Below are positions 3,722 through 7,835 of a DNA stretch of 13,480 nt, piece after piece. Source of the DNA: an uncultured Rubrobacteraceae bacterium. GTDB lineage: Bacteria; Actinomycetota; Rubrobacteria; Rubrobacterales; Rubrobacteraceae. The position numbers and the translations under genes are program-made. Positions within the stretch are counted from its first letter, which is position 1; each line of letters begins with the position of its first letter. The notes under the pieces were generated by a model. The model had not been told where the DNA came from. It saw only the letters and a list, made by a program, of their open reading frames with translations, and ran no database searches. Location of the stretch: the NCBI GenBank assembly GCA_902805985.1, contig CADCUW010000411.1, positions 1 to 13,480 of the forward strand, written 5' to 3'.

Positions 3722-5221
3722 TCAGGACCCGTCCGCCGCGCTCGCCGACCCGAGACCACGGAGCCCGTCCGTCCCCGAGAGGCCCGGAATCGCGCCGGGC
3801 GCAGCGAACCTGGCGTCGGCCGCGACCGCGTAGCTGCAGTCTTCGGCGTCGATCACCCTGAGCAGGACCCTTACCGCCTGCTGGTCGAGGGCGCTACCGG
3901 CCATCCCTGCCAGCTCACGCCGGGCCTCCTCGGGTGGAAGGCCGGGGTTGTGCGGGCCGTCCAGCACAAGCGAGGCGTAGGTCTCGCAGGCGGCGAGTAT
4001 CTTGGCCTCCAGCGGTATCCATTCCCCCCTAAGCCTGTCCGGGTAGCCCGTACCGTCTTCCCTCTCGTGGTGCCAGCGGACCCACCGGGCGGCTTCCGCG
4101 AACCCCTCGGCAGCCGACAGGACACGCTCGCCCCGGATCGAGTGCTCGCGCAGGTGCATCTGGCCCACCGAGTTGAGCTTCTTCGGGTGGCTCAAGAGCA
4201 CCTCGTCCGGCACGCTCGCGAGCCCCACATCCATCAGGAGCGCCGCCGTCCTGAGTTTCTCGACCTCTCCGCGGTCGAGGCCGAGCTCGCGGGCCACATC
4301 GGCCGCGTAGACGGCGGTGGCCGGCGACAAGCGGGCGGTGTGACCGTCCCTCGTGCCCACGGCCTCGACCAAGCGGAAGGCGAACGCGAGGGGCGCCGCG
4401 AGCGCCCCCCTTAGCTCGGCCTCCAACCTCTCGTTCCTCGCCTCCAGGGCTTCCACCCGCTCCCGGTGCTCACGGGCCACATGCAGGAGGGCCACTGCAA
4501 CGGCGGCGCCCACGAAGAGCGCTATCGGCGCCGCGGGCCCGTAGGCCAGGAAGGCCCACGCCGCGCAGAGCACCGTCAGGACCGCTGCCCCGTCGGCAGC
4601 AACGGCGGGAAGCATGACCTCCCGCAAGGACTCGGAGAACGTGGTGCCGCGCTTGACGCGCAGGAGGCCCATCGCCAGCAGGTCGTCGAGGGCGTGGAAC
4701 GCCAGCCCCGCCGTTAGCACACCGGCGAGCAGACGCGGCTGGGTCCCGTCGGAGAAGAGCAGGGGCTCGGCGAATTGGGAGTAGGTAAGCCCGGCGGCAA
4801 GAAAAGCCAGGGTGTGGGTCGCGGCCGTGAACGCCGTACGCAGCTTGTTCCGGTAGAGCACGGACGGTACCGCTACCGCCAGGGCCCACACCGGGCCGGC
4901 GAGGACCAGCGCGGTCAAAACCGGGATCTCTATCACCTCGGTCGTAACGCCGCCGAGCCGCACGGGGAACTGGCGGAAGGCCGCGCACACGGCGGCCAGG
5001 ACCGCCACCGCCCAGACGGCCGTCCACTCGAACGGGACCCCGAAGGAGAGGACCCAGGCGAGCACGGCGGCCGAGGCCAGACCGCACAGGGCGCACACGT
5101 AGACACGGGTGCGCCGCGGACGCCGCCCGTTCTCCTGTCCCGCGCACGGATCGCCCTCTTGGGCAGCCGCTTTCCTGCGAACGGTTTCGCGCGGGGAGAT
5201 CCGTAGGGCATCCCGATCCAT
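3722..5221 (-). CDS. Polytopic membrane protein with a degenerate HD-GYP domain
   Basis: 499 residues. A basic N-terminus (1-38) leads into about six hydrophobic segments between residues 40 and 248, then a short coiled coil (251-273, HRERVEALEARNERLEAEL), then an HD-GYP-like domain (about 280-460). HD-GYP enzymes normally hydrolyse cyclic di-GMP. Here the first His (294), His360 in HSIRGERVL, His384-His385 and the DGTGYP motif (389-394) are kept. However, the HD pair is Met330-Asp331, the usual HDIGK segment reads MDVGL, and the later metal-binding Asp is Glu413. Catalysis is therefore doubtful; it may act as a c-di-GMP sensor or in protein contacts. The ATG at 5221 has only a weak GGGG ribosome site, so the true start could differ. 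Two tiny ORFs and a hairpin lie directly upstream on the same strand. Confidence 0.85.
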   Translation of the reverse strand: MDRDALRISPRETVRRKAAAQEGDPCAGQENGRRPRRTRVYVCALCGLASAAVLAWVLSFGVPFEWTAVWAVAVLAAVCAAFRQFPVRLGGVTTEVIEIPVLTALVLAGPVWALAVAVPSVLYRNKLRTAFTAATHTLAFLAAGLTYSQFAEPLLFSDGTQPRLLAGVLTAGLAFHALDDLLAMGLLRVKRGTTFSESLREVMLPAVAADGAAVLTVLCAAWAFLAYGPAAPIALFVGAAVAVALLHVAREHRERVEALEARNERLEAELRGALAAPLAFAFRLVEAVGTRDGHTARLSPATAVYAADVARELGLDRGEVEKLRTAALLMDVGLASVPDEVLLSHPKKLNSVGQMHLREHSIRGERVLSAAEGFAEAARWVRWHHEREDGTGYPDRLRGEWIPLEAKILAACETYASLVLDGPHNPGLPPEEARRELAGMAGSALDQQAVRVLLRVIDAEDCSYAVAADARFAAPGAIPGLSGTDGLRGLGSASAADGS

Positions 5222-5278
5222 ACCCCGGAACTTTAGGGCAGGACGGGACGTCCGTAAAGGGCTCGCTGCGAAATTGAT

Positions 5279-5301
5279 GCCCGCCTGCCACGACGGCGGG
5301 C
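5279..5301 (-). terminator. Hairpin in the leader of the HD-GYP gene
   Basis: A perfect 7-bp stem, GCCCGCC/GGCGGGC, with a 9-base loop lies between the stop of the MAKKPW ORF (5316) and the HD-GYP start (5221). On the minus strand it is followed by ATCAATTT, a weak U-rich tail. It could be a leaky terminator or attenuator. Confidence 0.4.
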
Positions 5302-5315
5302 GGATCGTTCGGACG

Positions 5316-5336
5316 TTACCAGGGCTTCTTGGCCAT
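5316..5336 (-). CDS. Six-codon ORF encoding MAKKPW (second of a pair)
   Basis: ATG at 5336, five sense codons (Ala-Lys-Lys-Pro-Trp), stop TAA at 5316-5318. AGGAGGT (complement of 5345-5351) stands 8 bases upstream, one of the best ribosome sites in the window. A homologous unit lies about 100 bases upstream on the same strand. The two differ by a synonymous Ala codon, by Pro for Ala at residue 5 and by TAA for TAG. I do not recognise a named peptide. Possible roles are a regulatory leader peptide (Pro-Trp-stop before the hairpin at 5279-5301), a directly translated signalling peptide, or an ultra-short RiPP precursor comparable in size to biarylitide pentapeptides; no modifying enzyme is visible here. 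That it is translated is inferred. Confidence 0.5.
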   Translation of the reverse strand: MAKKPW

Positions 5337-5418
5337 GGCGCGGTACCTCCTCTCCGCTTTCTCGAGTCGGGTCGTCGACCAGGTCGCGACGGCCGCCTAC
5401 GTCTTCACCAGCATCGAC

Positions 5419-5439
5419 CTACCAAGCCTTCTTAGCCAT
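5419..5439 (-). CDS. Six-codon ORF encoding MAKKAW (first of a pair)
   Basis: ATG at 5439, Ala-Lys-Lys-Ala-Trp, stop TAG at 5419-5421. GGAGGTGA (complement of 5446-5453), a full match to the anti-Shine-Dalgarno core, stands 6 bases upstream. It shares length, start context and four of five residues after Met with the ORF at 5316-5336, while the 82-base spacer between the two ORFs shows no other repeat apart from the second ribosome site. That pattern suggests the peptide, not the DNA, has been kept. No promoter is clear upstream on this strand. The pair precedes the HD-GYP membrane protein gene. Confidence 0.5.
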   Translation of the reverse strand: MAKKAW

Positions 5440-5507
5440 AGCGCCTCACCTCCCTCCGGATCTTCACTGGTACCAATCCTTACAGAAGCGCGCCGATTCT
5501 GCACGAG

Positions 5508-6316: not shown

Positions 6317-6460
6317 ATGACACAAGATACGGCATCGCCACGTAAGGCCGTCAGCGTCGGGAACGAGTCTATCCCCCTGATCGGACCGGGGCTAGGCGGG
6401 ATCCTGCATCCGTACTTCGGAGAATTGTCCTTCCAGAGACTGTCTGGAAAATCGGAATAG
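6317..6460 (+). pseudogene. Possible small ORF cut off by the inserted repeat element
   Basis: ATG at 6317 opens a 47-codon frame reading MTQDTASPRKAVSVGNESIP, then LIGPGLGGILHPYFGELSF. The frame then enters the left terminal repeat of the element at 6435 and stops at TAG 6458-6460. The sequence before the junction is protein-like, but no ribosome site is visible and I recognise no family. If it is real, the element truncated a longer gene. Confidence 0.25.
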
Positions 6461-6577
6461 AGCCCGAATCGAGGCCCGAGGGCCACCAAGAGGGGACAAA
6501 GGATTCTGGATTTGGCCACTTCTTGCTGCCAAAGTCCCCTCGTCGAGAAGCCTTCGGGTATTTTCCAGACAGTCTCT
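6435..6577. mobile_element. 143-bp MITE-like element with 18-bp perfect terminal inverted repeats
   Basis: AGAGACTGTCTGGAAAAT at 6435-6452 is repeated exactly as its reverse complement at 6560-6577. The interior has no ORF and contains a second inverted pair (GAGGGGAC 6490-6497 with GTCCCCTC 6534-6541), so the unit could fold on itself. The flanking octamers (gtccttcc and ctacgagg) do not match, so there is no target duplication under this choice of ends. The repeats recall the ends of IS256-type insertion sequences, but that is from memory and uncertain. A non-autonomous element or an internally deleted IS fits best. Confidence 0.65.
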
Positions 6578-6662: not shown

Positions 6663-7835
6663 CTAGAAACCGCCGACGTACTCGCGCACGATGGCGGCGC
6701 CGTCCTTGCTGGTGCCGGCGGTGGCCGTCGCGCTGGAGGTGAGCTCGCCTTCGACCTCCGCGGGGCTCGAGGCGGTGTTCTTCGAGAGGTAGAGGGCGGC
6801 CCCGCCGCCCACGTGCGGGGCGGACATCGAGGTGCCGCTCATCTTGATCGCCCCACCGCCCTTCTTCGTCGAGAGGATGCCCGCCCCGGGCGCCCAGATG
6901 TCCACGCAGGAGCCGTAGTTGCTCCACCAGGGCTCCGCGTCCCTCTTGTTGGTCGCCGCGACGGTGGCGACGCCGTTGTCGGTGCCCGCTCCCGCCCTGG
7001 CCGGGGAGCTCTTGCAGGCGTCCTCGCCCTCGTTGCCAGCAGCTATAGAGTAGAAGACGCCACCGGCCGCCGAGTTCGTCACCGCGACGTCGAAGGCCTT
7101 GCTCAACCCGGAGCCAATGCTTATGTTGGCGATCGCTGGCGTGACGGCGTTCGCGGTCACCCAGTCGATGCCCTCGATCGCGTCGGAGACTGTGCCCGAG
7201 CCGCGGCAGCCGGTCACCTTCACGCCCGTGAGGGGGACGCCTGGGGAGGACCCTACCACGTCGCGCGCGTTGTCCTTGGCCGCAACGATGCCCGCCACGT
7301 GCGTGCCGTGGCCGTAGCAGTCGTAGTTCTTGCCGTCCCCCGCGAAGTTGACGTGGTTCGCCACTCTGAGGTCGCGGTGCTTGTAGACGCCGGAGTCGAT
7401 CACGTAGGCGTTGACGCCCGAGACGGCCCCCGAACCGTCCCCGGCCTTCGTGGAGCTCTTGTCCGCGTCGATCTTGTCGATGCCCCAGGGGATCGTCTGG
7501 GCGGTCGCCCGCGTCGTCTGGTCGGACTCTACGTAGGCCACCCGCCCGTCGGCGCGCACCTCCCCCAGGCGCCTCTCTGGGATGCGGGCGGCGTAGCCGT
7601 TTATGGCGTGCCGGTAGGTGTGGATCACCTCGGCGCCGTGTCCTTGGGCGTGCTCCCGGGCCACGGCGGTTGGATCCTGGGTTGCCTCCTCGAGCACGAC
7701 TATGTACCGGCCTGGGATGGCGTCCCGCGGGGAGCCTTGGCCGGCCGTGGTGCCCTCCTGGGCCAGCGCCAGCCCTGCGCAAGAGAGCAGCACAGCTAGT
7801 GCCGTCGAAGCCAGCATCAGAACGTTCCTTCTCAT
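6663..7835 (-). CDS. Secreted subtilisin-like serine protease (S8 family, proteinase K-like)
   Basis: 390 residues. A Sec signal peptide covers residues 1 to about 25 (MRRN, hydrophobic core, cleavage after ALA). An inhibitor I9 propeptide spans about 41-110 (GRYIVVLEE to VAYVESDQ). The catalytic domain follows, with Asp147 (YVIDSGV), His176 (GHGTHVAG), the oxyanion Asn268 (AAGNEG) and Ser336 (GTSMSAPHV). The order and spacing are normal for a proteinase K-type enzyme, and all key residues are present. It should be exported, cleaved from its propeptide outside the cell and degrade proteins. The ATG has AGGAGG starting 17 bases upstream, extending into a G-run. The gene stands alone on its strand, with a likely terminator at 6609-6635. 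Confidence 0.95.
   Translation of the reverse strand: MRRNVLMLASTALAVLLSCAGLALAQEGTTAGQGSPRDAIPGRYIVVLEEATQDPTAVAREHAQGHGAEVIHTYRHAINGYAARIPERRLGEVRADGRVAYVESDQTTRATAQTIPWGIDKIDADKSSTKAGDGSGAVSGVNAYVIDSGVYKHRDLRVANHVNFAGDGKNYDCYGHGTHVAGIVAAKDNARDVVGSSPGVPLTGVKVTGCRGSGTVSDAIEGIDWVTANAVTPAIANISIGSGLSKAFDVAVTNSAAGGVFYSIAAGNEGEDACKSSPARAGAGTDNGVATVAATNKRDAEPWWSNYGSCVDIWAPGAGILSTKKGGGAIKMSGTSMSAPHVGGGAALYLSKNTASSPAEVEGELTSSATATAGTSKDGAAIVREYVGGF

Follow-up and report, generated by a model that had tools for sequence, protein, structure and literature searches.

In the quorum sensing of Firmicutes based on leaderless communication peptides (LCPs) and RopB, a short open reading frame (ORF) without a secretion signal adjoins the receptor gene, and the peptides, which are hydrophobic (e.g., MWLILLFL), act on a cytosolic RRNPP-type regulator (PMC10518010). 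Genes of similar size are described for biarylitide precursors, which have five residues encoded in 18 bp (PMC13417212). Here, a stretch of 13,480 nucleotides from an uncultured Rubrobacteraceae bacterium (GCA_902805985.1, contig CADCUW010000411.1), referred to as the window, was analyzed, in which two tandem six-codon ORFs, MAKKAW and MAKKPW, precede a gene for a membrane protein with an HD-GYP domain. It is fairly probable that this array and the gene behind it constitute a peptide signal and its receptor, and such tiny peptides and membrane receptors probably form a new bacterial peptide signaling system. The peptides, all ending in Trp, apparently represent an undescribed and fast-diversifying family; in the open-licence literature, no account of such peptides beside HD-GYP proteins was found. 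LCP/RopB is the nearest working analogue, sharing a very short leaderless ORF beside a receptor gene, sequences that diverge between species, and co-evolving pairs. However, receptor and peptide chemistry differ: the present peptides are basic, end in Trp, and occur in tandem, whereas LCPs are mostly aliphatic or aromatic, and the neighbor here is a membrane protein with S-component-like and HD-GYP domains instead of a cytosolic RopB-type regulator.

The two ORFs are read from the minus strand as ATG GCT AAG AAG GCT TGG TAG (ORF 1, 5439–5419) and ATG GCC AAG AAG CCC TGG TAA (ORF 2, 5336–5316), each being 21 bases long, with 82 bases between them. Direct reading of the sequence confirmed them and their Shine–Dalgarno (SD) sites as described in the initial annotation (Table 1). 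The pattern ATGGCNAARAARNNNTGGTRR matched the 4,226,979-base assembly twice, at ORF 1 and ORF 2, while the reversed pattern gave no match. No match of this pattern was found in any of eight congeners, and the M-A-K-K-x-W pattern with an SD site in front was absent from the 395 other genomes of a 396-genome phylum sample. Such a lack of copies at orthologous loci was the outcome that the initial annotation itself had held to count against its proposal, and M-A-K-K-x-W was indeed too narrow as a family signature, as the letters between the conserved features vary by locus. Accordingly, the signature had to be derived from orthologous loci. The literal hexapeptide is private to the window locus, while the class, namely an SD site, a tiny ORF, and a Trp codon followed by a stop ahead of the receptor gene, is widespread. 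When 401 bases around the array were compared with DNA of the genus, no orthologous DNA was found (best foreign match, E 6.9e-4 over 27 bases), and Rfam returned nothing at its gathering threshold except one tRNA.

To define the class, an alignment of the membrane domain (A2, 21 sequences) was searched through 39 Rubrobacteraceae genomes. The domain was found in 24 of them, in 46 rows corresponding to 45 genes (one gene was in two pieces), and was absent from all 10 genomes of one genus. Two genes had no upstream sequence, which left 43 for the upstream counts. Trp-ended tiny ORFs were present within 560 bases upstream of 36 of these 43 genes, totaling 85 ORFs that encode peptides of 5–11 residues without a secretion signal, as in the LCPs. 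Five loci had one copy and 31 had two to five, with start-to-start spacings of 68–117 bases and one exception of 171, and all 36 arrays lay 60–190 bases upstream of the receptor gene on the same strand. Examples include VSEGKIHAW in three copies with VAEGKIHAW, MGRKAW in three copies, MPRIASW in four copies, MARKIW with VARKIW, and VQKIELGHKYW with VSKIRLGHKYW; a second locus of the window genome (C252) encodes MARKSW and VARKSW. The culturable relative Rubrobacter taiwanensis carries loci for MRFGSRRAW and VTGFGKNRLW. Among the seven receptors without arrays, six form one clade. No tandem pair was found at loci L029, L047, L048, L061, L066, and L121, although L029 has a lone ORF of 10 residues ending in Trp with an SD match of five. 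These counts are to be read with the following definitions. Loci were sorted into 36 with arrays and 7 others after the upstream ORFs had been inspected, and four Trp-ended ORFs (LIRSVSGW, MSFRDLW, VSREKW, and an out-of-register reading ending in SGKTW) were excluded by name before counting, which makes G005:C102 array-less. In addition, the SD match is only four bases in 7 of the 85 ORFs, and some loci (G095, G117, and G127) are near-identical and hence not independent.

The association was compared with several controls, for which tiny ORFs of 5–12 codons with an SD match of at least 5 and any last residue were counted. The 36 array loci contained 80 such ORFs, 77 of them Trp-ended and distributed over 35 loci; at an SD match of at least 6, all 57 ended in Trp. 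The antisense strand gave a single tiny ORF, which was not Trp-ended, and 30 rounds of shuffling gave a mean of 0.17 and a maximum of 1 of the 36 loci. For 99 other ORFs from 15 receptor neighborhoods (mechanically called ORFs of at least 100 residues, not annotated genes), the upstream sequences contained 13 tiny ORFs, none ending in Trp. Finally, a strict DNA pattern gave 57 matches in the 39 genomes, and all 38 at receptor loci were in frame, compared with none of the 19 elsewhere. Thus, as far as the strict pattern sees, the arrays are confined to this receptor family.

Comparison of adjacent copies revealed selection on the peptides. In the interior codons of 42 equal-length pairs (7 pairs of unequal length were excluded), 72 silent and 47 replacement differences were counted, where 24% silent differences were expected; the dN/dS-like ratio was 0.21, and the p value of 3e-17 is nominal because the differences are not independent. 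Adjacent ORFs were 84% identical, while the spacers were 46% identical (random, 45%). At each of the last five positions, Trp included, 45–49 of 48–49 adjacent pairs agreed, and agreement fell further from Trp to 29/35, 19/29, and 12/17, suggesting a core of roughly five residues at the C terminus. At 27 of 36 loci, position −2, two residues before Trp, was K or R. Across loci, the elements that are kept comprise the ribosome site, the short C-terminal core with K or R two or three places ahead of the final Trp, TAA or TAG stops, tandem repetition, and the receptor gene; the intervening letters vary between loci. Two claims of the initial annotation held, protein-level selection through the excess of silent differences and partnership with the downstream membrane HD-GYP protein at the gene level, and its signature did not.

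The stop codons and the cores of paralogous loci were also informative. The 85 ORFs ended in TAG (44), TAA (40), and TGA (1), compared with TGA in 36 of 101 mechanically called ORFs of at least 200 residues. This suggests that translation must not run on past Trp, presumably because the carboxylate at the C terminus is important. Copies at the same locus had identical residues at the four positions preceding Trp in 62 of 74 pairs, whereas paralogous loci of one genome shared these residues in none of 14 pairs and differed at 3.29 of 4 positions on average, compared with 3.30 for loci of different genomes; each paralogue has its private peptide. Peptide distance was correlated with receptor distance over 35 loci (Mantel r of 0.37 with the sensor half and of 0.28 with the HD-GYP half, p 0.0005 in each case), a correlation that shared descent alone could produce.

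The receptor candidate of the window matched Pfam HD_5 with 4.1e-27 over residues 292–447. Its AlphaFold model (pLDDT 80.7) contains a membrane domain with an ECF S-component-like fold; ECF S components are binders of small ligands. The closest known membrane domains are sensors of the LytS/BtsS type (5TMR-LYT), MASE9 sensors, and ECF S components. With Pfam 5TM-5TMR_LYT, the window member scored 17.5 bits, below the curated cut-off of 24.6. MASE9 matched 2 of 21 members (best, 5.7e-5). We know of no peptide ligand for the 5TMR-LYT, MASE9, or ECF S-component folds. The C-terminal HD-GYP domain shares the HH and GYP motifs with HD-GYP phosphodiesterases of cyclic di-GMP (c-di-GMP; 4mcw, 4r8z, and 5z7c); G and P were kept in 32 of 32 readable rows, Y in 31 of 32, and the HH pair in 32 of 32. 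Unlike those enzymes, 32 of the 33 readable receptors that have arrays carry a degenerate HD dyad. Therefore, the output in Rubrobacteraceae is probably non-catalytic, to judge from the residues, and may consist of partner control or nucleotide binding. The dyad was retained in the three receptor sequences read from two other families.

Relatives outside the family carried longer peptides. In a 392-genome phylum sample, the membrane domain was weakly found in 11 genomes outside Rubrobacteraceae. In a second family of 35 genomes, the gene was present in 7, and upstream sequence was available for 6; all six loci had ORFs of 20 residues (e.g., MARFFKLIFSLVGLGSTVRW) ending in GSTVRW, five of them in two copies, and none of the 11 copies counted ended in TGA. 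In a third group, an order of 19 genomes, there were 12 orthologues covering the membrane half. All 12 were accompanied by an ORF of approximately 25 residues with an SD match of 8–9, a hydrophobic leader, a stretch of small residues or Gly-Gly, and a variable aromatic end (GRWTW, GSWWY, GIWGVW, FFRWW, and AGSWKF), two lacking an aromatic last residue. These ORFs resemble, by analogy, a secreted pheromone precursor. SHP/Rgg and similar pheromones are leader-bearing, and the third-group peptides are like them in their hydrophobic leader and variable C-terminal signal; the receptor class differs, since no Rgg-type regulator is involved here. Of the 11 distant relatives, five (L180–L183 and L187) showed no clear peptide; L185 had one ORF of 31 residues ending in RQW, which was left out of the counts as a single occurrence. 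The longer peptides had no match in NCBIfam or Pfam.

Taken together, the tiny peptide, tandem copies, short C-terminal core that is conserved yet private to each receptor gene, ligand-type membrane fold, and leader-bearing relatives point to a peptide signal and a receptor with HD-GYP output. In the sequence of events that we infer, each tiny ORF would be translated without a leader, and the peptide would accumulate. Its active part would be the C-terminal core, some five residues long and ending in a free Trp (the KKAW and KKPW cores in the window). The peptide would be the cognate ligand of the adjoining membrane protein; most likely, it would be exported and reach the S-component-like domain from the outside, and its binding would alter the cytoplasmic HD-GYP domain and, through it, a c-di-GMP-type output. 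On a wider scale, the balance tips slightly toward a new class of peptide cell-to-cell signaling in Actinomycetota, with genes as short as 21 bases for pheromones that have a free C-terminal Trp, each read by its own membrane receptor of ECF S-component fold wired straight into the c-di-GMP machinery. The leaderless tandem forms of Rubrobacteraceae and the leader-bearing forms of at least two other families would then be variants of one system.

The main rival is that the ORFs are cis-acting leader peptides: the act of translating them, e.g., with ribosomes stalled at the last Trp codon or at the stop, would regulate the receptor gene at the transcriptional or translational level, and the peptide itself would have no function. 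Several observations speak for it: the constant position close upstream on the same strand, the strong ribosome sites, the one invariant Trp codon ahead of the stop, the near absence of TGA, and the array-to-receptor segments, which were more structured than shuffles (z < −2) in 15 of 36 loci. In the window, this segment as a whole was not beyond shuffles (z −0.52). However, the spacers between ORFs were unstructured (mean z 0.37, n = 49), terminator-like sites 3′ of the array occurred in only 4 of 36 loci, and most ORFs have a single Trp codon, without the stalling-conserved sequence or regulatory codon run of an attenuator. Moreover, 22 of the 36 segments between array and receptor contained a strict promoter-like motif, picked after inspection of the data (mean of 1.5 and maximum of 6 in shuffles), whereas none of the 49 spacers did; thus, the ORFs may not sit on the receptor's main transcript. 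Stalling cores would also be expected to be alike across paralogues on one ribosome, which none of the 14 pairs were, and the longer leader-bearing peptides of other families do not fit. A leader-peptide role was given a small, though real, chance.

It is also improbable, but worth weighing, that the peptides never leave the cell that makes them and bind the receptor there as small subunits or modulators, as a cell-private autoregulation. The Rubrobacteraceae peptides have no export signal, and the entire pairing evidence fits this explanation equally well. Two points argue otherwise: in relatives, a hydrophobic leader and a Gly-Gly-like stretch precede an aromatic tail, and the S-component fold takes ligands from outside in known transporters. 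A role as precursors of modified or antimicrobial peptides, similar to ribosomally synthesized and post-translationally modified peptides (RiPPs), seems highly improbable. The genes are very short with a C-terminal aromatic residue, and in size they are like those of biarylitides (PMC13417212, PMC12951456). In contrast to those systems, no P450 or other modifying enzyme was found by Pfam among the nine window proteins and ten neighbors scanned, most Rubrobacteraceae peptides have only one aromatic residue, the copies are in tandem, and the constant neighbor is the receptor. Chance, or a DNA or RNA motif merely resembling an ORF, has only the small size in its favor and is hardly credible given the near-zero controls, the frame kept at 38 of 38 sites, and the bias toward silent changes.

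Table 1. Features of the array and the receptor candidate in the window
Feature	Positions	Strand	Basis
Receptor candidate, 499 residues, N-terminal membrane domain and C-terminal HD-GYP; start codon uncertain	3722..5221	-	ORF, Pfam, AlphaFold
HD-GYP domain; GYP retained, M-D in place of the HD dyad, Leu in place of the first metal-site His	3881..4348	-	Pfam HD_5, alignment
Membrane sensor domain (alignment A2); ECF S-component-like fold in model	4400..5104	-	
Promoter-like element TTTACG - 17 nt - TAAAGT, between array and receptor	5230..5258	-	By eye
G+C-rich hairpin GCCCGCC / GGCGGGC without T run, immediately 3′ of array	5279..5301	-	By eye, then folded
Tiny ORF 2, MAKKPW-stop (TAA)	5316..5336	-	Sequence; counted among array ORFs
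SD AGGAGGT of ORF 2	5345..5351	-	Sequence; 8 bases ahead of ATG
Tiny ORF 1, MAKKAW-stop (TAG)	5419..5439	-	Sequence; among the 85 array ORFs of the 36 loci
SD GGAGGTGA of ORF 1	5446..5453	-	Sequence; 6 bases ahead of ATG

The promoter-like element of the window (Table 1) is related to the strict motif and falls below it. A simple promoter and terminator scan gave nothing at the window array, and upstream of the arrays no common promoter motif emerged (1 of 36 loci). In L173, L175, L169, and other loci, the array-to-receptor segments contain long near-perfect inverted repeats (arms of approximately 12–17 bp) around a promoter-like −10 element, possibly an operator or terminator. Elsewhere in the window, a secreted-looking subtilase (Peptidase_S8 with an Inhibitor_I9 propeptide) is encoded at 6663–7835 on the minus strand, approximately 1.2 kb upstream of the array. 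An element resembling a miniature inverted-repeat transposable element lies at 6435–6577; it is approximately 143 bp long with perfect terminal inverted repeats of 18 nt, and had 15 matches in its own assembly at E 1e-5, itself included. At 1049–2601, a tRNA-Leu (caa) adjoins a tyrosine recombinase gene, which suggests an integrated element at that end of the contig.

If the signal and receptor pairing is true, bacterial peptide signaling would gain a further receptor fold and a further output, and HD-GYP membrane proteins without a known input would obtain a defined ligand. Functional signal genes would then be as short as 18–33 codon-bases, far below annotation limits. Each peptide has a named partner gene, the paralogues within one genome serve as built-in specificity controls, and the peptides are cheap to synthesize.
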